The notes beneath the pieces are model-generated. The model was not told where the DNA came from and searched no databases. It saw nothing but the letters and a program-made list of their open reading frames with translations. From Antarctobacter sediminis (GTDB taxonomy: Bacteria > Pseudomonadota > Alphaproteobacteria > Rhodobacterales > Rhodobacteraceae): a DNA stretch of 64,000 bases. The number at the start of each line of letters is the position of its first letter. Position 1 is the first letter of the stretch. The stretch spans positions 372,001 through 436,000 of the forward strand of contig NZ_JAHUZG010000002.1 in the NCBI RefSeq assembly GCF_019218285.1. The letters are read 5' to 3'. Below are positions 3,922-47,395 of the stretch, piece by piece. Position numbers and translations under genes: made by a program.

Positions 3922-6900
3922 TCAGAAGTCGAGCGTCACGCCATGCTCCAGTTGCAGTGTCTGCTCTGTCGGCATCGACAGGCGGGTCACGACCGAGCCA
4001 AGCCCGTTGGCAAAGGGTCGCGCCCGCTTGATGTTGAAGGTGAAGCGGCGGCTTTCGTCGATCTTCTCGACATCCACTTCAAAGCCCCATGTCAGACCGC
4101 TGGCCACCTCGCGGCGCTCCCACGAAAAGGCCATGCCCACACCGCATTCCGCAGCATCATCATAAGACGACAGCGTACAGGACAGGCGCGGGGTAAAGGC
4201 CGTCTGCATCATGCTGGCCAGCGCTTCGGACCCGCCGGGTGCACCAAGGCTTTCGAACCGGATCTCTGCCGTGGCGCGAGCGCCCCGGAAGTCATCCATC
4301 TCGATCACGCCGGTGTGGGTCAGACCCAGTTGCTTGGCCGTCACATCAGAGTCCCCGGCCTTGGCATAGGCAAAGTCGATCCCGACGCGGGGCTTCATGA
4401 CAAAGGTGTCGAAAGTCCGCTCACCCGAAATCCCTGCCCCGGCAAAGCCAGCGATATAGCTGTAATTGCCGGTGGCATTGATCGGGGCCGTGGCCGTGTC
4501 GAAATCAATGTCATAGCTGTGACGTCCGAATGCCCCGGCAAGGTAGTAGTCGAGGAACAGACCCTGGCCAAAGCCGCGCGCACCATAGACACCGCCATTG
4601 ACGCCAAAGCCGTCGATTGCACCGTCACCCAGACCGCTGACATCCGTGCGGCTGTAATACCCGCCCAGGAAGTAGCCGGCGATCGACGTGTCGCTGGTAA
4701 ACCGCTCACGCTGCCACGCGAACTGGACCAGCGCCTGTAGGCCCGTGTCCTCGGTCTTGTTCAGCGAGAAGGTGCCGTCAAGGATTTCGCGGGTGTCGGT
4801 CGCACAGTTGTAGACATCGCTGCCAAAGGTCCCGCGCGCCGTGCCGCTGGCATCCTGAATTTGCAGGCTGCCATTGACGTCCAGCGCCTGAAGCGTGCCG
4901 CAGGGCAGGTCGCGACCCGCTTGCAGACGAGTAAGCGCCCCTTTCGCCATCCGGCTAAAGCTGCGGGTCTGGGCGTCGATGGTCTCGGCCAGATCCTCTT
5001 CGAGGATTTCGGTCAGGGGGTCACGTACCTGATCCACAAGGTCATCCGCAACCGTCACGGCGGCAAGCGCCAGCGGCGCGCCATCATAGCGCGTGTCCGC
5101 CGAAGACACGACCACCGTGGGCTGACAGCTGTGAGTGCCTTCAACCTTGTCGTCATCGATGGCCCGGATCGTCAGCGCCTGCGGTGTCGTATAGTTCGCC
5201 GCGGTGAAGGTCAGGCTGGCCGGGGCAACAGTACACTGGCTGTCCCCGGCAAAACTCAACGTGACCGGAGAGCTTGGCGAGCCAAGCAGCGCAAAGGTCA
5301 TCGTGGCGTCGTCATTGCCGCCCTCGTTGGTCACAAGGTCAACATTGACCACCGCGATGTCGGCGAAATCGTCATCGGTAATGGTGGCCGTCTGGGTCAG
5401 GGTCGTGCCCAGGATCGTCGTCAGATCCCCCGACACAACCGCGCCGAGCGTCAGTTCAACGGTTTCCGCGCCTTCGATGTCGCCATCTTCCAGCACCGGA
5501 ACAGTGATGGTGGCCGAAGTCGCCCCCGCCGGGATCGTCACCGTCCCCGACAGCGCGGTGAAGTCAGCGCCAGAGGTCGCGGTGCCGGCCACCGTGTAGC
5601 TGATTACCGTGTCCTGCGTCGAAATCCGCGCCTGCGTCACCGTAAAGGTGGCGTCGGTCGGAGTTCCGCCATTGGCCTCTGCCCCGTCGGTGGCCGCGCT
5701 CAGCGTCACCGCGTTTTCCGCGCATTGCGTCATGGGGATGTTGTTGGCGAGCACGAAAGGATCGCCCGGTTCGATCACAAAGCTGGTGTAGAAGACCGGG
5801 TTGGCCGCCAGCGAGGCATCGGCAAGGAACCCGGTCGAGCCAAACTCGGTCGAGCCGATCACCGCCGGGTTCGACGGCAACAGCGTGGTCAGGTCCAGCG
5901 CACCAGAAGACAGCCGCGACGTGCTGGGGATACCGACCGCGGTCGGATAGCTCAGCGACATGGTGTACGTGCCCGGACGCAGGGCGAACCACTGGATTTC
6001 ACCGGTCGACCCGTCGCGGGTGATGTTGATGAAATTCGCAGTTCCCAGCGAAGAGTTGGAACCCGTCGGCCCGGTGACGGTAAAGCCGCCGCCCGGAATG
6101 ATGCGGCCATCATCCTCGCAGTAGAAATACCCCTGCGGATCGAAATCCTCATCGTCCGGGATGCCATCGCCGTCACGATCGTTCCCGACTTCAAAGAGGT
6201 CGGGCACACCGTCGCCATCCGAATCCGGCAGCGGAACAGGGTTTGGCGTTCCGGTCAGATCCGCAGTCACGGTGATTGCAGCGGCTGCGGTCGATAGGTT
6301 CCCTGCCGCATCCGCTGCCGCGCCCGCATCCAGCGAGATCTCGACCGGGCCGTCATGATCCGGCGTCACGGTAAAGCTGTAGTCCGCCCCCGTACCGGTC
6401 AGCGCCGAAGCAGTGCCGTTCGTGATCTGGACAGTGGCAAGCGTCAGCCCGGTCACATCTTCCGAGAAGGTCAGCGTGACAAGGAAGGGGTCCGCCTGCG
6501 CCGTGGTCGGACCGGTCAGGACCGCCGTCGGCAGAACGGCATCCTTGGTCGCGGTTCCCGTGGCGGCCGCGCCGGTGTTGCCCGCCGGATCGGTCAAGGC
6601 AACGCTGATCGTCAGCGTGCCGTCGCCAAGGCCCGACAGGTCCAGCCCGGTCACTTGATCGGTGCCCGTGGCGATGGTGCCCGTACCCGTGACGGCGGCG
6701 CCGCCCCCGTCCGAGGTGATGCTGTAGGCAAATGTTGCCCCAACCTCGGCCCCGGAAAGGGTGAATCCGACAGCCGACTGGTTACCCGCATTTACCGGGT
6801 CCTGATCGAAGGCAACGCCATATCCCGAAGGCGCGGTCGCGTCCTTGGTCGCGCTGGCCGTCGCCTGCGGCGCGGGGTTGCCTGCCGCGTCAGATACATC

Positions 6901-9900
6901 CGCCGTGATCAACAGGACGCCGTCCGCCAGACCGGTCAGGTCGATGGACAGGTTCCAGACGCCGCCGCTGACGGCTGCCGTGCCAGTTGCCACAGCCGCG
7001 CCATCACTGACCTCGACCGTGACGACCGCACCATCGGCCAGATCGGTCGTTGTCCCCGAAAGGACCGTGGCCAATGCCTCTGCCGCGTTGATGACGTCAT
7101 CATCCTCGATCGGCGCATCAATGGCCACGCCGGGAATGGTGGCATCCTTGATCGCGGTATCGGTCGCATCGGCCCCGGTGTTGCCGGCCGGATCGGTCAG
7201 CGCCACGGTCAGCGTCAGCGTGCCGTCGCCAAGGCCCGACAGGTCCAGCCCGGTCACCTGATCAGTGGCCGTGACGATGGTGCCCGTGCCGGTGACGGCG
7301 GCGCCGCCCCCGTCCGAGGTGATGCTATAGGCAAATGTTGCCCCAACCTCGGCCCCGGCAAAGGTAAAGCCGGTCGCTGTCTGGTTGGCAAGGTTCACCG
7401 GATCGTCGTCAAGGCTGGCCGCGTAGCCCGCCGGGGCAACCGTATCCTTGGACGCGCTGGCGGTCGCCTGCGGTGCCGGGTTGCCCGCCGGATCGGTGGC
7501 ATCGGCGGTCACGCTCAGGGCGCCATCCGCAAGGGCGGACAGGTCCAGCGTCACGCTCCAGACCCCGCCCGAGACGGTCGCCGTGCCAGACACAAGCCCG
7601 CTGGCCCCATCTGCGACGTCGATGGTCACGCTGGTTGCATCAGGCAGATCGGTGGAGGTGCCCGAAATCACAACCGTTGCGACCTCGGCGGCGTTGACCA
7701 CATCGTCGCCCTCGATGGGTGCGTCGATGGCCAGCGTCGGAGCCGTGGCATCCTTGGTCGTGGTGGCCGTGGCCGCCGCGCCGGTGTTGCCCTTGAAGTC
7801 CGTCAGCGTGACGCTGAGCGTCAGCGTACCATCCGGCAGTCCGGACAGGTCTATGCCGGTCACTTGCTGGTCCGCCGCGGTGATCGTGCCGGTGCCTGTC
7901 ACACTGCCAGCCCCACCGTCAGAGGTGATGGTATAGGCAAAGGTCACATCGGTGCCAGAGATGCCCGGCCCGACCTCGGCATTGGCGAAGGTGAACCCGA
8001 TGGCAGTCTGGTTGGCGATGTTCACGGGATCTTCGTCAAAGCTGGCCGTGTAACCCGCAGGCGCGGTGGTGTCCTTGAGGAAACTGGTCGTCGCAGACGA
8101 ACCGTTACCCGAGGCATCCGTGATCTCGGCCGTCAGCGTGATCGTACCATCGGCAAGGCCAGAGATGTCCAGCGCGTCGGTCCAGCTATGCTGGGCGCCC
8201 GGACCGGCTGTCAGGCCCGTTGTGACAGAAACACTGCCCGCCGCCCCGTCGGTGGCCGTGATGACCACCTGAACGGCATCCGCCGCATTGGAGGCTACGC
8301 CCGAGGCGATGAAGCCTGCGGCCTCGGCCGCGTTGACCGCATTGGCATAAAGGCTGTTGGCCGCATTTGGATCCGGATCCTGAATTTCGATCGAGGGGGC
8401 CAGCGTATCCTTGGCAAAGGAGGCCACCACCTGAACCGCGGCATTGCCCGCCGCGTCCGACACATCGGCGGAAAGGTCGTAATCGCCATCCGCAAACGCC
8501 GAAAGATCGTAGGATGTGTTCCAGACACCGCCCGTCACCGTAACATTGCGCGTGTCGACGACCGCCGTAGAGGCATCGCGCAGGGTCAGCGTGACCAATG
8601 TGCCATCGGCGACACCGCCAGCGGTGCCAGACACGGCAACCGCAGACGCTTCGGCTGTGTTGACGATGTCATCACCCGCAATCGGCGTATCAATGCCGAC
8701 AACGGGAATGCCCGTGTCCTTGGTGGCCGAGGCCGTGACCTGGGTGGCCGGGTTGCCTGCCGCATCCGAAGCATCGGCTGCAAAGTCAAGCGTTCCGTCG
8801 GCCAGACCGGACAGGTCCAGTGTCGCCGACCACAGGCCGCCGGTCACTGTGGCCGTGCCCGTCACCGATCCTGCGCCGCTGTCACCGACCGAGATGGTGA
8901 CGATGGTGCCATCGGCCAGATCACTGGACGTGCCCGACAGGACAACGGTAGCGGCCTCACCCGCATTGATCACATCGTCGCCTTCAATCGGAGTGTCGAT
9001 GGTCAGGCTGGGTGCGAAGGCGTCCTTTGTCGCGGTATCTGTCACGGCGCTACCGGCATTCCCCGCGTCATCGGTCAGGATCACCGACAGCGTCAGTGTG
9101 CCATCGCCAAGGCCCGACAAATCCAGACCGGTCACCTGATCCGTGGCGGTGACGATGCTGCCGGTCCCGGTGACAGGCGCGCCGCCTCCGTCAGAGCTGA
9201 TCGTATAGGCAAAGGCCGTGCCGACCTCTGCCCCCGCAAAGGTAAAGCTGATCGCCGTCTGATTGGCGATGTTCACCGGATCCTGATCAAAGGTCGCGGC
9301 ATAACCCGTCGGCGCTGCCGTGTCCTTGGTGGCCGAGGCGCTGGCTTGCGGAGCGGGGTTGCCCGCCGCATCCGAGACATCTGCCGTCAGGGTCAACGGT
9401 CCGTCAGCCAGCCCCGAAAGGTCGATCACCAGCGACCATGCACCGCCAGCAACACCCGCAGTCCCCGTTGCGACGCCGGCACCGCCGTCGCTCACCGAAA
9501 CGCTGAGCACGAGGCCGTCCGCGACGCCCGAGGTGGTGCCTGTCAGGGCGACGGCACTAACGTTTGCAGCATTGACAAATCCCGTGCCCGCCACCGGCGT
9601 ATCAAAGGCAACGGCAGGGGCTGCGGTGTCCTTGGTCACGGTCGCCGTGGTATTCGCACCGGCGTTTCCTGCCGGGTCTGTCAGCAAAACCGTCAGAGTC
9701 AGCGTACCGTCCAGCAACCCACTGAGATCCAGACCGGTCACCGCGTCTGTTGCGGTTGCGATTGTCCCGGTTCCGGTCACAGGCGTGCCGCCGGCATCGG
9801 ACGTGATGCTATATGAGAAATCCGCGCCGACTTCGGCTGCTGCAAAGCTAAAGCTCATCGCCGCCGCGTTTGCCGCGTTCACCGGATCCTGATCGAAGGC

Positions 9901-42910: not shown

Positions 42911-43798
42911 TCAGCCCCCTGCCTGAAATGCGGCCAGTTCGGCCCGCAGCCAGCCCTCGAAAGCGCGCGAGGCCGGCGTGGCGGCATGATCGGCAGGCGG
43001 AAGCAGAAAATACGCCTCTGTCAGGTCGGGGCAGTGATCGAAGGGCCGCACAAGGCGTCCGTCCGCCAGCATATCCCCGGCCAGCGTATCGTGCGCCATG
43101 GCCATGCCCGCCCCGTGTTTGGCGGCTTCGATGGCGATCACGAACGTGGAGGTCAGCATAACGCTGCCCTCACGATCAAAGGGTTTGCCCTGTGACGTGA
43201 ACCACGCGCCCCACGTCCCCGTCAGCCCGGCGCAATCCATCAAAACGGCCTCATCGGGATTGGGGCGCCCCTCCTGAAAGGTTGGGGCACAGACCGGGAA
43301 AAACCTTTCCTGCGTCAGACGTTCGGCGGCGGCCGACATATCCTCGGGGCGCCCGAAACGGATCTCCATCGCCGCATTGGCCGAGTGACGCTCGGGATCC
43401 CAGATCGGCGTCACGATATTCAGAACAAGCCACGGATGTTGTCGCAGCAGACGGGACAGCCGCGGTGCCAGCCAGATCACCGAAAACGCCATGTTGCATT
43501 GAAGGATCAGGTGCCGCCCCCGGTCCCCCCCGGTGAAGGCACGTGTGCCGCTGGCCAGCAGGTCGAAGGCTTCGCGCAGCACCGGCAGATAGTTTGCCCC
43601 CGCTTCGGTCAGGTCAATGGCGCGCGTCCGCCGGACAAATAGTTCCCGCCCGAGAAAAGCCTCAAGACTGCGGACGTGCTGGCTGACCGCCGATTGGGTC
43701 AGGTTCAGCTCTGCCGCCGCCCGCGTGAACGACAGGTGCCGGGCGCTGGCCTCGAAGGCCCGCAGCCAGGTCAGGGGAGGCAAACCATCGGTCGTCAT
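42911..43798 (-). CDS. LysR-family regulator (GcvA-like)
   Basis: The 295-residue regulator has an N-terminal winged helix-turn-helix (LTWLRAFEASARHLSFTRAAAELNLTQSAVSQHVRSLEAFLG) and a LysR substrate-binding domain. The PPLTWLRAFEASARHLSF start and the HGAGMAMAHDTL block are typical of the GcvA subgroup. It diverges from the class II aldolase/desaturase/PanB-like/Rieske operon and most likely controls it in response to a pathway ligand. An ATG four codons upstream (MIYA) is an alternative start. A palindromic site lies in the shared promoter. Confidence 0.92.
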   Translation of the reverse strand: MTTDGLPPLTWLRAFEASARHLSFTRAAAELNLTQSAVSQHVRSLEAFLGRELFVRRTRAIDLTEAGANYLPVLREAFDLLASGTRAFTGGDRGRHLILQCNMAFSVIWLAPRLSRLLRQHPWLVLNIVTPIWDPERHSANAAMEIRFGRPEDMSAAAERLTQERFFPVCAPTFQEGRPNPDEAVLMDCAGLTGTWGAWFTSQGKPFDREGSVMLTSTFVIAIEAAKHGAGMAMAHDTLAGDMLADGRLVRPFDHCPDLTEAYFLLPPADHAATPASRAFEGWLRAELAAFQAGG

Positions 43799-43812
43799 CG
43801 CATATATCATCC

Positions 43813-43835
43813 ATGCATAAGCTTGTTTAATGTAT
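43813..43835. promoter_or_regulatory. Interrupted palindrome in LysR/operon divergent promoter
   Basis: ATGCAT and ATGTAT flank an 11-base centre with further symmetry (the left arm reads ATGCATAA, the right TTTAATGTAT). LysR regulators usually bind such AT-rich interrupted dyads near the promoter of their divergent target. It lies 15 bases upstream of the regulator's ATG and about 75 bases upstream of the operon's first gene. Inference only. Confidence 0.45.
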
Positions 43836-43910
43836 AGGCGCGGAATCCATCGTTTGTCAGGTTTTCTGCCGCCAATTATCCCTTTGGCAGTCAAAAAGGG
43901 AGGCGGCGTC

Positions 43911-44666
43911 ATGCTGGACAGACACGGACAGGAAAATCTTACCTTCTGGGACGAACGCGTGGACATGGCCGCGGCCTTTCGCTGGACCGCGCGGTTGAAC
44001 ATGCACGAGGCGGTGGCCAATCACTTCAGCCTCGCGGTCAATCCCGAAGGCACCCGGTTTCTTATGAATCCGAACCAGCGTCATTTCGCACGGATCAAGG
44101 CTTCGGACCTGTTGCTGCTGGACGCAAATGATCCGACGACAATGCAGCGCCCCGGTGCGCCCGATCCCACCGCGTGGGGGTTGCACGGGTCCATCCACCG
44201 GCTGTGCCCGCACGCCCGCTGTGTCATGCATGTGCATTCGATCCACGCCACCGTTCTGGCCAGTCTTGCAGACAGCAGCCTACCGCCGATCGACCAGAAC
44301 ACCGCCACATTTTACAACCGGGTGGTGATCGACGACGCCTTTGGCGGGCTGGCCTTCGAAGAGGAGGGCATGCGCTGTGCCGGGATGCTGACCGACCCCA
44401 AGAAAAAGGTCATGGTCATGGGCAACCACGGCGTGCTGGTGATCGGGGACAGCGTCGCGGACACGTTCAACCGCCTCTACTATTTCGAACGCGCGGCCGA
44501 AACCTATATCCGCGCGCTTCAGACCGGCAAACCTCTGCGCGTGCTACCCGCTGAAATCGCAGAAAAAACCGCGCAGGAGCTTGAGGATTACCCCGATCAG
44601 GCTGAACACCATCTGGCCGAGCTGAAAGCAATCCTCGACGACGAAGGCCTCAACTACGCGAGCTGA
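43911..44666 (+). CDS. Class II aldolase/adducin-family protein
   Basis: The 251-residue protein has the AraD/FucA fold. Zinc ligands are visible as HVHS (about residues 107-109) and the later NHGVLVIG (about 172). The position that holds the catalytic Glu in classical fuculose aldolase reads TAWGLH here, so the usual Glu seems absent, as in many adducin-like members. It begins at an ATG with AGGGAGG upstream and is first in a four-gene operon with a desaturase, a PanB-like protein and a Rieske ferredoxin. It may act as a lyase, decarboxylase or hydratase in that pathway. The substrate is unknown. Confidence 0.85.
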   Translation: MLDRHGQENLTFWDERVDMAAAFRWTARLNMHEAVANHFSLAVNPEGTRFLMNPNQRHFARIKASDLLLLDANDPTTMQRPGAPDPTAWGLHGSIHRLCPHARCVMHVHSIHATVLASLADSSLPPIDQNTATFYNRVVIDDAFGGLAFEEEGMRCAGMLTDPKKKVMVMGNHGVLVIGDSVADTFNRLYYFERAAETYIRALQTGKPLRVLPAEIAEKTAQELEDYPDQAEHHLAELKAILDDEGLNYAS

Positions 44667-44669
44667 CCC

Positions 44670-45698
44670 ATGCCCGATTACCAGCCCACAAATGCCGCGT
44701 CTTCCGGTGTCAAACTCGACAAGAAGACCCTCAAGACCATCGCCGCGCGCAGCGACCGCCCCGGGGTGATCTGGCTGGCGCAATGGACCGTAGCCCTGAT
44801 CGTCACCGGATCGCTGGTCTGGATCTTGATCGGGTCGCCCTGGGTCTGGCCCGCGATGATGCTGCACGGCATCTTTCTGTCGGTGCCAGCCTATTCCGCC
44901 AGCCACGAAACCGCACATGGGACGGCCTTTCGCACCCGTTGGCTGAACGAAGCCGTGCTGTGGGTCACATCCCTGATCTACATGGAAGAGCCGCTGCACC
45001 GGCGGTATACGCACACCAATCACCACACCCATACCTGGCACGTGGGCAAAGACAGCCAGATGCCTTTCGACACGCCGATGGGCTTTGGCGGCTGGCTGGC
45101 CGAGATCACAGGCTTTGCGCTGTTGCGCTTTCACCTTCAGGTTTTCTGGCACCTGTCCATCGGTCACTACACCGACACCATGCGCATGGTCACACCCGAG
45201 CAGGAATTCCCCAAGATGACCCGAAATGCCCGGATCATGGTGGCGATCTATCTTGTCGTCCTGCTGGCCCCGGCGGTCGGCATCTGGTGGCCGCTGTGGC
45301 TGATTGTTCTGCCCAGAATCCTTGGTGCGCCGATCATGTTGCTGTTCACGCTGATCCAGCACGTCGAGTTACAGGAAAACTCTCCTTCGATCCTTGAAAG
45401 CACGCGGTCGTTCCGCACCGGGCCGCTGGCCGCATTCCTGTACATGAACATGAACAACCACGTGGAACACCATCTGTATCCGCAGGTCCCCTTTCACGCG
45501 TTGCCGCAACTGGCCGAAGCGGTGAAGGATCAGGTGCCCGCCCCGGACAACGGCTTTTTCCGCAGCAACTGGGAGGTTGCCGTGGTGGTGCTGCGCCGGT
45601 CCATCGGGTTGTCGACCAAGGCGCCCACGCTGCGGCAAGCTCCGCACATGATCACAGAGGGCGGCCCGGTCAAGCGCATTGCGCAGAGGACGATGTAG
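44670..45698 (+). CDS. Membrane di-iron fatty-acid desaturase/hydroxylase-family protein
   Basis: This 342-residue integral membrane protein carries the three His boxes of membrane non-haem di-iron enzymes: SHETAHG (H79, H83), HTNHHTHTW (H115, H118, H119) and HVEHHLYP (about 265-269). About four to five membrane helices separate the boxes. These enzymes use O2 and electrons to desaturate, hydroxylate or monooxygenate substrates. The Rieske ferredoxin gene in the same operon is a likely electron donor. The setting with aldolase-like and PanB-like enzymes and a LysR regulator points to a small-molecule hydroxylase in catabolism rather than lipid modification. Confidence 0.9.
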   Translation: MPDYQPTNAASSGVKLDKKTLKTIAARSDRPGVIWLAQWTVALIVTGSLVWILIGSPWVWPAMMLHGIFLSVPAYSASHETAHGTAFRTRWLNEAVLWVTSLIYMEEPLHRRYTHTNHHTHTWHVGKDSQMPFDTPMGFGGWLAEITGFALLRFHLQVFWHLSIGHYTDTMRMVTPEQEFPKMTRNARIMVAIYLVVLLAPAVGIWWPLWLIVLPRILGAPIMLLFTLIQHVELQENSPSILESTRSFRTGPLAAFLYMNMNNHVEHHLYPQVPFHALPQLAEAVKDQVPAPDNGFFRSNWEVAVVVLRRSIGLSTKAPTLRQAPHMITEGGPVKRIAQRTM

Positions 45699-45699
45699 G

Positions 45700-46548
45700 A
45701 TGAAACGCATCTATGATTTCAGCCGCAAACCGGCCACCCGCAACTATACCATTGCAGACCTGAAGGCGTTGAAGGGATCCGGGCGCAAGCTGTCCATGGC
45801 AAACCCGGCAGACAACGACCAGATCCGCGCCTGCGTCGAAGCCGGGATTGACCTCTTTGTTGTTGGCACCGACCAGATGGAGGACCTGCGGCGGCTGGCC
45901 CCGTCGCATTTCGCCGGGGCAGGATCGACATGGGCGCAATTCGGATCTGATGACGACATCGTGGCCCATGCCTTCGAGGCGATGCGGCGCGGTGCGGACA
46001 TGTATTACACGCTGCGGTCCTTCGATGTGATGGAACGCATGGCGCGCGAGGGCATCCCCGTACAAAGCCACATCGGCCTGATCCCCACGTTCAGCCACCA
46101 TTGCGGCGGGTTGCGCGCCTTTGGCCGTACCGCCGCCGAAGCCATGCAGATCTGGGAAACGCTGAAGCGGATGGAAGACGTGGGCGTTTTTGCCGTCGAG
46201 GCGGAATGCATCGCCGAGGAAGTCCTGCAAGCCGTGAACGAAAAAACCGCTGTCGTGACTTTTTCTCTGGGGTCCGGGCCGCATGGAGATGCGATCTTTT
46301 CCTTCGTTGCCGACGTCTGCGGCGAGGCCAGCGAAGAGGAAAAGCCCCCCAAACATGCCCATGCCTTTGGCAACGTGGGGCGTCTGCACCGGCAGATCCA
46401 TGAGGAACGCGTTGCGGCCTTGGCGACCTTTCACAACGAGGTGGCGGGCGGGACCTTTCCCTATGCCCGAACCAATATCGGCATGTTGCCGAACCAAGAG
46501 GAGATGTTCCTCGAAGCGCTCGACAAATGGGTTCCGGCCCACCGCTGA
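45700..46548 (+). CDS. PanB-like (ketopantoate hydroxymethyltransferase fold) protein, atypical active site
   Basis: This 282-residue TIM-barrel protein is recognisably related to PanB: EAGIDLFVVGTDQ, REGIPVQSHIGLIP and GGLRAFGRTAAEA match PanB's GLNVMLVGDS, HLGLTPQS and GGYKVQGR regions. The residues that bind Mg and substrate in PanB seem changed: VGDS reads VGTD, and the KIE after the barrel strand reads YTL. Only a Glu in VEAECIA is clearly kept. It probably does different chemistry (lyase or C-C bond chemistry of the PEP mutase/PanB superfamily) and is not the pantothenate enzyme. Its start lies one base after the desaturase stop. Confidence 0.8.
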   Translation: MKRIYDFSRKPATRNYTIADLKALKGSGRKLSMANPADNDQIRACVEAGIDLFVVGTDQMEDLRRLAPSHFAGAGSTWAQFGSDDDIVAHAFEAMRRGADMYYTLRSFDVMERMAREGIPVQSHIGLIPTFSHHCGGLRAFGRTAAEAMQIWETLKRMEDVGVFAVEAECIAEEVLQAVNEKTAVVTFSLGSGPHGDAIFSFVADVCGEASEEEKPPKHAHAFGNVGRLHRQIHEERVAALATFHNEVAGGTFPYARTNIGMLPNQEEMFLEALDKWVPAHR

Positions 46549-46567
46549 CCGAAGGAAGGAAAGACAT

Positions 46568-46882
46568 ATGGGGAATTGGATCGACGCCTGTGCCACGACG
46601 GACGTGGACGACGAAGACCTGATCGCATGGGAGTACGCGGGACGGTCCTACGCGATTTACAACACGGAAAAAGGGTTCTTTGCCTCGGACCTGATGTGCA
46701 CGCATGAAGAGCAGAGCCTTGAGGACGGCATGGTCATCGACTGTGTAATCGAATGCCCCCTGCATGGCGGCCGCTTTGACATTTGCACGGGCAAAGCACT
46801 GTCTTCACCGGCCTCGGTCGATCTGAGGACTTACCCCGTCAGGATCGAAGGCGGTCGCGTCCTTGTCGACCTGCCCGGCTAG
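46568..46882 (+). CDS. Rieske-type [2Fe-2S] ferredoxin
   Basis: The 104-residue soluble Rieske ferredoxin has ligands in LMCTHEEQ (C44, H46) and IECPLHGGRFD (C63, H66), the C-x-H / C-x2-H pattern of electron carriers for ring oxygenases and related monooxygenases. The start is an ATG after AAGGAAGGAAAG. As last gene of the operon it probably feeds electrons to the membrane di-iron protein. No reductase gene is nearby, so a shared reductase must serve it. Its stop codon overlaps the stop of the convergent VOC gene. Confidence 0.92.
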   Translation: MGNWIDACATTDVDDEDLIAWEYAGRSYAIYNTEKGFFASDLMCTHEEQSLEDGMVIDCVIECPLHGGRFDICTGKALSSPASVDLRTYPVRIEGGRVLVDLPG

Positions 46883-47301
46883 GCCGGGTGCCGCTCCGGC
46901 GCGGCAAAGGGCACCGATTCATAAAGCTCCAGCGGCAGGTCATCCGGGTCGCGGAAAAAAGTGAACCGGTGCCCGGTGTATTCATCGACGCGCAGATCTT
47001 CGACCGGCACGCCGGCCGCTGTCAGGCCCGCCATGGTCGCCTCGATATCATCGACCGTAAAGGCAAGGTGGCGCAGGCCCTGCGCCTCGGGCCGCGATGG
47101 CCGCCGGGGCGGTTCGGGAAATGAGAAAAGCTCGATCTGCGCACCGTTCGGCAGGGCAAGGTCCAGCTTCCATGACTGCCGCTCGGCCCGGTAGTTTTCG
47201 GCCAGAACCGTCAGGCCAAGCGTGTCCACATAGAAAGTTTTGGAGCGTTGATAATCGGAACAGATGATCGCCGCGTGGTGGATTGCCTTCAGACCTGCCA
47301 T
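46879..47301 (-). CDS. VOC-family protein (YaeR/GloA2-like)
   Basis: This 140-residue single-module VOC protein has the N-terminal metal strand AIHHAAIICSDYQRSKTFYVDTLGL, a middle IELFSFP strand, HLAFTVDDIEATM, and the C-terminal FFRDPDDLPLELYE with its ligand Glu. This resembles the YaeR/GloA2 group of glyoxalase-like proteins, whose function is not settled. The start has an AGGAGG site. Its stop codon and that of the convergent ferredoxin share CTAG. Confidence 0.88.
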   Translation of the reverse strand: MAGLKAIHHAAIICSDYQRSKTFYVDTLGLTVLAENYRAERQSWKLDLALPNGAQIELFSFPEPPRRPSRPEAQGLRHLAFTVDDIEATMAGLTAAGVPVEDLRVDEYTGHRFTFFRDPDDLPLELYESVPFAAPERHPA

Positions 47302-47395
47302 TCCCCGATCCTCCTGTTCGCCTGCGCGCCCCTTGTAGCGATACAAGACAAACCGCGCGGCAACATCAAGCCATGGCCGCACAACCGATCCGCAT

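Follow-up and report, generated by a model that had tools for sequence, protein, structure and literature searches.

We analysed a stretch of 64,000 nucleotides from the Antarctobacter sediminis genome (contig NZ_JAHUZG010000002.1, positions 372,001 to 436,000), referred to here as the window (G000:C2:372001-436000, within a genome of 5.1 Mb). Positions 43911-46882 of the window, on the + strand, hold four genes, for a class II aldolase-like protein, a membrane di-iron oxygenase, a PanB-fold protein and a Rieske ferredoxin. By reading frames and sequence, the gaps between them are 3, 1 and 19 bases. A first-pass annotation had described them as nearly touching, co-directional genes that diverge from a LysR regulator, and the coordinates and Pfam matches bear this out. 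The features of the locus are the following.

42911..43798, - strand: LysR-type regulator, GcvA-like, divergent from the operon (HTH_1 and LysR_substrate)
43817..43831, no strand given: LysR box ATAAGCTTGTTTAAT, a T-N11-A palindrome (pattern ATHAR-N5-HTWAT)
43911..44666, + strand: class II aldolase-like metal enzyme, 251 amino acids (Aldolase_II, 1.4e-40)
44670..45698, + strand: membrane desaturase-fold di-iron oxygenase, 342 amino acids (FA_desaturase, 7e-31)
45700..46548, + strand: PanB-fold protein with changed metal-site positions, 282 amino acids, the proposed one-carbon partner (Pantoate_transf, 6.5e-29, over part of the protein)
46568..46882, + strand: Rieske [2Fe-2S] ferredoxin, MocE-like, 104 amino acids, the likely electron donor (Rieske, 2.3e-17)
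46879-47304, - strand: YaeR-type glyoxalase-like gene (200 bits, cut-off 140)

The YaeR-type gene lies tail to tail with the ferredoxin gene, such that the stop ends of the two share 4 bases. The span of the regulator assumes an ATG start, and longer alternative starts exist. A comparison with the PHROGs profiles gave no match.

The oxygenase has the His boxes HETAH at 79, HTNHH at 115 and HVEHH at 264, together with H231, and its nine His residues are invariant across 81 aligned rows (55 from the window clade and 26 others; 73 different sequences). The earlier statement that this desaturase-family protein keeps all three His boxes thus holds in both the alignment and the motif check. In a tree that did not include the Sinorhizobium meliloti MocD itself, the 55 rows of the window clade are separate, with a support of 100/99. 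The clades can be told apart at three positions: the window clade has Q130/S244/S247 (with one QST), most of the others E/N/T (with one QNT and one ENS). An AlphaFold2 (AF2) model of the oxygenase had a predicted local distance difference test (pLDDT) value of 92.4. No match was found in a sequence search of the PDB, and the fold search returned an unnamed chain of a chloroplast motor complex, with a template modelling (TM) score of 0.68, and a weak match to stearoyl-CoA desaturase.

Both the Pfam family, FA_desaturase, and the public records, in which relatives of the oxygenase are annotated as "fatty acid desaturase", could be taken to mean that the protein is a desaturase or hydroxylase of membrane lipids, fatty acids or carotenoids, with neighbours unrelated to its function. 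We regard this as highly improbable: the gene belongs to a recurring set of catabolic type that comes with a Rieske donor and has a LysR box of its own, it falls in a separate clade, and it occurs in only 12 of 394 genomes of the family.

The ferredoxin, with the Rieske motif CTH at 44 and CPLH at 63, scored 115.6 bits against the MocE family (TIGR02377), under the cut-off of 136.15. By reading frames and Pfam, the window operon lacks a reductase gene. In a single one of the 50 related loci described below, L070, tblastn placed a gene for a Reductase_C-type reductase directly downstream of the ferredoxin gene. The likeness to MocDEF of S. meliloti, which serves catabolism of the rhizopine 3-O-methyl-scyllo-inosamine, is in the order of a three-His-box membrane oxygenase of the desaturase family followed by a Rieske ferredoxin, in the Reductase_C-type reductase of the relative L070, and in the PanB-like gene that the moc-like cluster of S. 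meliloti RCAM1115 also carries. MocD is described as the rhizopine oxygenase that converts 3-O-methyl-scyllo-inosamine to scyllo-inosamine (PMC2593844). By analogy, the operon would work like MocDEF, a rhizopine O-demethylase, but in a separate clade and with other partners. The differences are that the window oxygenase has Q130/S244/S247 instead of mostly E/N/T, that its ferredoxin falls under the MocE cut-off, and that the operon comes with a LysR gene and an aldolase-like gene and has neither inositol genes nor a reductase gene. Together, the recurring gene set, the reductase of L070 and the MocDEF parallel support two earlier proposals, that the Rieske ferredoxin is a plausible electron donor and that the genes form an oxidative module for a small molecule.

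Four further members of the oxygenase family are encoded in the same genome. Two own-genome modules (both on G000:C8) combine an oxygenase with a MocE-type ferredoxin and a PanB-like protein: L092, at 5670-8769, is adjoined by genes for an inositol-type ATP-binding cassette (ABC) transporter and by MocA-like and IolE-like genes, and L091, at 5599-9646, lies near a heparinase-like gene. The ferredoxins of the two other own-genome modules exceed the MocE cut-off, at 146.9 and 147.4 bits. A clade next to that of the window oxygenase contains Moc-type genes that have inositol-type transporter, MocA-like and IolE-like genes as neighbours. Such company in inositol or sugar clusters would fit O-demethylation of a methyl-sugar or methyl-inositol, as in true moc clusters. 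For the window operon, however, we consider such a substrate very unlikely; inositol and sugar genes are missing from the operon, the clade-specific residues differ, and some members of the clade have DmdA-like or DddP-like neighbours instead.

Conservation of the gene order was examined at 50 loci, each encoding a protein closely related to the oxygenase (identity over the best segment 56 to 81%), which were taken from a scan of genome contigs that finds close relatives only. All gene-order counts except that of the M24 gene were made by tblastn, because the gene caller still misses genes. Of the 51 loci checked in this way (the 50 and the window), we counted the 36, window included, that had at least 2.5 kb upstream and at least 3 kb downstream; the 15 shorter ones were omitted. 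The ferredoxin gene is downstream of the oxygenase gene in 34 of the 36 loci and a divergent LysR gene is present in 28, while the PanB-like and aldolase-like genes were detected in 22 and 20, respectively. The full set of ferredoxin, LysR, PanB-like and aldolase-like genes is found in 13. At the other extreme, locus L055 has none of the three operon partners by tblastn. Leisingera aquimarina DSM 24565 and Roseovarius albus CECT 7450 are among the carriers of the 50 loci; the cluster of the former lacks a PanB-like gene, whereas that of the latter has one. The recurrence of the gene set in other genomes is more than chance, and the reading as a small-molecule module, for which conservation of the gene order had been proposed as a check, survives.

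The first-pass annotation had also called the module complete, which is not borne out: the window operon is without a reductase gene and without the M24 peptidase-fold gene that 19 of the 50 loci carry (a count that omits the second copy of the L055 contig). In 13 of these loci the M24 gene is placed between the PanB-like and ferredoxin genes, and the largest version among the relatives consists of aldolase-like, desaturase-like, PanB-like, M24 and ferredoxin genes with the LysR gene. The M24 copy of L034 is nearest to DddP in NCBIfam but far under the cut-off (275 vs 600 bits). With the M24 gene absent from the window cluster, the best match in the window's own genome is 32% identical and is a DddP (877 bits, cut-off 600).

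Among the relatives there are several variant arrangements. One clade (L064, L065, L069, L071 and L138) has an IlvD/EDD-type dehydratase gene upstream and a TRAP transporter downstream; L064 was checked with Pfam, and the other four were assigned by clustering or length. In L137 (132-6349, G299:C17), genes for a ring-hydroxylating-type Rieske oxygenase and an FA_hydroxylase-family protein lie between the aldolase-like and desaturase-like genes, and this variant operon also carries a PanB-like gene (42%). A GcvT-type gene stands directly 3' of the ferredoxin gene in L031 (10295-11404) and L072 (9187-10290); the L031 copy is DmdA-like, under the cut-off (355 vs 410 bits).

The distribution of the operon is patchy. 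At E 1e-90, 12 of the 394 family genomes and 9 of the 385 class genomes have an orthologue, counting the window's own genome each time; for the genus to which L040 belongs, the figure at E 1e-100 is 5 of 54 genomes. In the window's genus, the other five genomes hold distant family members only (best 8e-40).

This distribution bears on the suggestion, raised in the first-pass annotation, of a link to homarine. The homarine operon of Ferrer-Gonzalez et al. 2026 is reportedly homABCDER, five genes and a regulator, and could thus be similar in size to ours. If the operon were the published homarine pathway, its oxygenase would attack the N-methylpyridinium ring. The largest version among the relatives likewise has five genes and a LysR gene. 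Mgd is reported to participate in the catabolism of homarine (PMC13390433); in the window genome, ~16 kb separate a soxB-type gene from a gmaS-type gene (taken as mgdA). At a threshold of E 1e-170, which we set ourselves, an MgdA-like gene was present in 39 of 49 operon genomes, many of them incomplete metagenome-assembled genomes, vs 299 of 394 family genomes; there is no enrichment, and co-occurrence with mgd gives no support for a homarine role of the window operon. Ruegeria pomeroyi, which is reported to draw down homarine quickly (PMC12817926), is nevertheless not among the 50 loci, the scan covering close relatives only. With the patchy occurrence (12 of 394 in the family, 5 of 54 in one genus) and a window cluster that lacks the M24 gene, the homarine link has gained no support, and we judge it quite unlikely.

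The regulator had GcvA as its best NCBIfam match (224 bits, under the cut-off of 288). In the window, the intergenic region between the LysR and aldolase-like genes spans 43799-43910. The pattern ATHAR-N5-HTWAT is present in 30 of 34 LysR intergenic regions, as against a mean of 0.4 and a maximum of 3 of 34 in mononucleotide shuffles, and the strict form ATTAR-N5-YTAAT in 20 of 34 (shuffles 0.025). Three patterns were tried, giving 30, 20 and 30 of 34. As they were derived from an alignment of 23 of the same regions, the counts show how widely the box is conserved but do not test it independently. The box is also found in 9 of 11 regions without a detected aldolase-like gene where the LysR gene faces the oxygenase gene. 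At L177 (G036:C9:43000-58000), a divergent LysR and aldolase-like pair occurs without an oxygenase, so the LysR-aldolase pair may act alone.

The third gene product has the fold of PanB, the ketopantoate hydroxymethyltransferase, and scores under the cut-off for two PanB families (85.2 vs 272 and 61.8 vs 207.55 bits). Its AF2 model (pLDDT 86.2) has ketopantoate hydroxymethyltransferase as best PDB match (TM 0.66) and resembles more weakly the phosphoenolpyruvate (PEP) mutase/isocitrate lyase superfamily. The metal site of PanB is formed by Asp45, Asp84 and Glu114. Aligned to E. coli PanB, the window protein has Gly, Tyr and Leu at Asp84, Lys112 and Glu114 and keeps His136 and Glu181; the Asp45 position is Thr, as judged from weak local alignments to other PanBs. 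Residues were counted in 56 PanB-like rows, with identical contigs kept, rows of <241 amino acids or with stops dropped, and L056 counted apart. All 56 have the equivalents of His136 and Glu181 and none that of Glu114, and Lys112 is replaced by Tyr in 50. Window-type proteins thus share with PanB the fold, the His and the Glu, and differ from it in lacking Glu114, in mostly having Tyr for Lys112 and in scoring under the curated cut-offs. The altered active site noted earlier for this protein is confirmed, with most metal-site positions changed.

The company of such genes is the new element of this study: PanB-fold proteins are associated with membrane di-iron oxygenases. A profile search of 61 genomes gave 10 intact PanB-like genes at >300 bits, a line drawn once the gap between 313.7 and 192.0 bits had been seen. 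For nine of the ten, the gene of a membrane di-iron oxygenase lies no more than 3 kb away, of the desaturase family in seven cases (one a contig-end fragment) and of the FA_hydroxylase family in two (G019:C40 and G004:C42); the eight other than the fragment are in clusters on the same strand or close by. On G019:C40 a desaturase-family gene is also present, 5.6 kb off. In 10 ordinary panB regions of ~16 kb each, viewed as a control, such an oxygenase, a MocE-type ferredoxin or a MocF-type reductase was found in none. At L192 (7228-11843, on G004:C42), PanB-like, Reductase_C-type reductase, Rieske ferredoxin, MocA-like and FA_hydroxylase-family genes are clustered, and a desaturase-family gene was not found there.

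The association extends to plasmids. In PLSDB, 288 plasmid records, mostly of Rhizobium and Sinorhizobium, match the window PanB-like protein at E 1e-10, a number that may include genuine PanB. The 13 plasmid regions that we viewed were picked from the listed rows, not at random. Each has a gene of the desaturase or sterol-desaturase family within 6 kb, in one case across the record start; the desaturase-family gene of S. meliloti near the PanB-like gene is unannotated and was detected by tblastn. By tblastn, a MocE-type ferredoxin is present in 9 of the 13, a reductase in 6, and purU in 2, one of which also has folD. In NZ_CP069371.1 there are two PanB-like copies (L201, 3020-9078, and L212, 6309-8137), one of them followed by folD, purU and iolG. 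The 13 viewed PanB-like genes are annotated as ketopantoate hydroxymethyltransferase, which is probably the wrong name. Our search of the open-licence literature found no publication on a link between PanB-like and MocE proteins.

Taking these observations together, we give about an even chance to the reading that the genes form a catabolic module of the MocDEF type under LysR control, which demethylates a small methylated metabolite and in which the PanB-fold partner handles the one-carbon unit. From NAD(P)H, electrons would reach the Rieske ferredoxin through a reductase presumably encoded elsewhere, and the ferredoxin would pass them to the membrane di-iron oxygenase. The oxygenase would hydroxylate a metabolite that is small, polar and methylated, with the methyl group as the most likely site. 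As suggested by MocD, the methyl group would then be lost as formaldehyde. The PanB-fold protein, judged by its neighbours, may place the one-carbon unit on tetrahydrofolate, and the aldolase-like protein might act on the demethylated product. Loading of tetrahydrofolate would fit the lost metal site, because that half-reaction of PanB needs no enolisation of a keto acid.

The pointers to a methylated compound are indirect: the role of MocD, the GcvT-type genes of L031 and L072 (the former DmdA-like), the DddP-like M24 genes and the ring-hydroxylating-type Rieske oxygenase of L137. Others point to different substrates, namely the IlvD/EDD-type dehydratase and TRAP transporter of the L064-type loci and an L198 gene annotated as 5-guanidino-2-oxopentanoate decarboxylase.

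Several points weigh against the demethylation reading. Demethylation itself is carried over from MocD by analogy, and the window oxygenase is only 28-31% identical to the Moc-type proteins of its own genome. A PanB-like gene was not found by tblastn in 14 of the 36 counted loci, nor at L197 and L198, two plasmid relatives of the oxygenase with an adjoining ferredoxin. The tenth PanB-like gene of the 61 genomes, on G019:C60, has a desaturase-family gene 6.7 kb off on the other strand and no ferredoxin near. In the viewed plasmid regions, tblastn did not find a MocE-type ferredoxin in 4 of 13 or purU in 11 of 13, and neither purU nor folD was found by tblastn next to the window operon or at any of the 50 related loci. 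Asp is kept at the 84 position in 5 of the 56 PanB-like rows and at the 45 position, where the alignment is uncertain, in 17. The lost metal residues could also mean a carbon-carbon lyase or a non-catalytic role.

A related alternative is hydroxylation without demethylation, after which the PanB-fold and aldolase-like proteins would cut carbon-carbon bonds of the product. The weaker resemblance of the PanB-fold model to PEP mutase/isocitrate lyase superfamily lyases is consistent with it, as are the weak match of the oxygenase to an arginine hydroxylase (29.5 bits vs a cut-off of 380), the thiamine-diphosphate enzyme gene that precedes the oxygenase gene on plasmid CP081100 (L139 and L198, the same record), and the relationship of the aldolase-like protein to the decarboxylase NovR and to TqaM. 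PanB-like genes, however, accompany oxygenases in differing substrate contexts and adjoin purU in two, a pattern more in keeping with release of a one-carbon unit than with lyase work specific to one substrate. We therefore consider this alternative unlikely.

The aldolase-like protein matched NF005689/PRK07490 with 412.3 bits, over the cut-off of 260, and all 43 of 43 rows have its His 92, 96 and 109. Its nearest PDB sequences are NovR, a class II aldolase/adducin protein and TqaM (best E 4.4e-19). Enzymes of the NovR/TqaM type carry out O2-dependent decarboxylation. They are among its closest solved relatives, but the similarity is modest and the window family mostly occurs without this operon: it is common, with matches at E 1e-40 in 26 of 61 genomes, most of them lacking the operon. 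Outside the operon, the genes are often near an AMP-nucleosidase-like gene (named by eye), which gives no substrate hint.

The demethylation reading can be widened, more tentatively and with the balance somewhat against it. The PanB-fold proteins beside Rieske-fed membrane di-iron oxygenases of two Pfam families may be a separate enzyme family that moves the formaldehyde of demethylases to tetrahydrofolate, from which FolD and PurU would lead to formate, and the window operon may be its marine branch, aimed at an undescribed methylated metabolite. Formate is the end product of PurU. If this were true, many "panB" genes on rhizobial and marine plasmids would be misnamed and would belong to one-carbon handling in oxidative demethylation; rhizopine catabolism would also gain a step, and there would be a marker for a methylated compound used by marine Alphaproteobacteria. 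In the nicotine breakdown described in PMC3891541, purU-mabO-folD is a known set handling methylene-tetrahydrofolate, and formaldehyde is given there as the PurU end product.

A second, more PanB-like group (L056, 9390-11383; L213, 6880-8816; L214, 5538-8689) adjoins genes for VanA_C-type Rieske oxygenases. The L213 protein passes the PanB cut-offs, and L214 also has a DmdA-like gene (375 bits vs 410). VanAB and formaldehyde in Pseudomonas are the subject of PMC10949508. Among the weaker matches of 135-192 bits in the 61 genomes, L213, L214 and L215 are of this group, near VanA-type oxygenases or pieces of them. L217 looks like an ordinary PanB, and L216, next to a MocE-type ferredoxin, is a PanB-like copy that is broken; an oxygenase was not found there. 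L215 lies on the same contig as the operon (G000:C2:431000-447500), 3 kb beyond the window, and consists of apparent broken pieces of a VanA_C-type oxygenase/PanB-like set.

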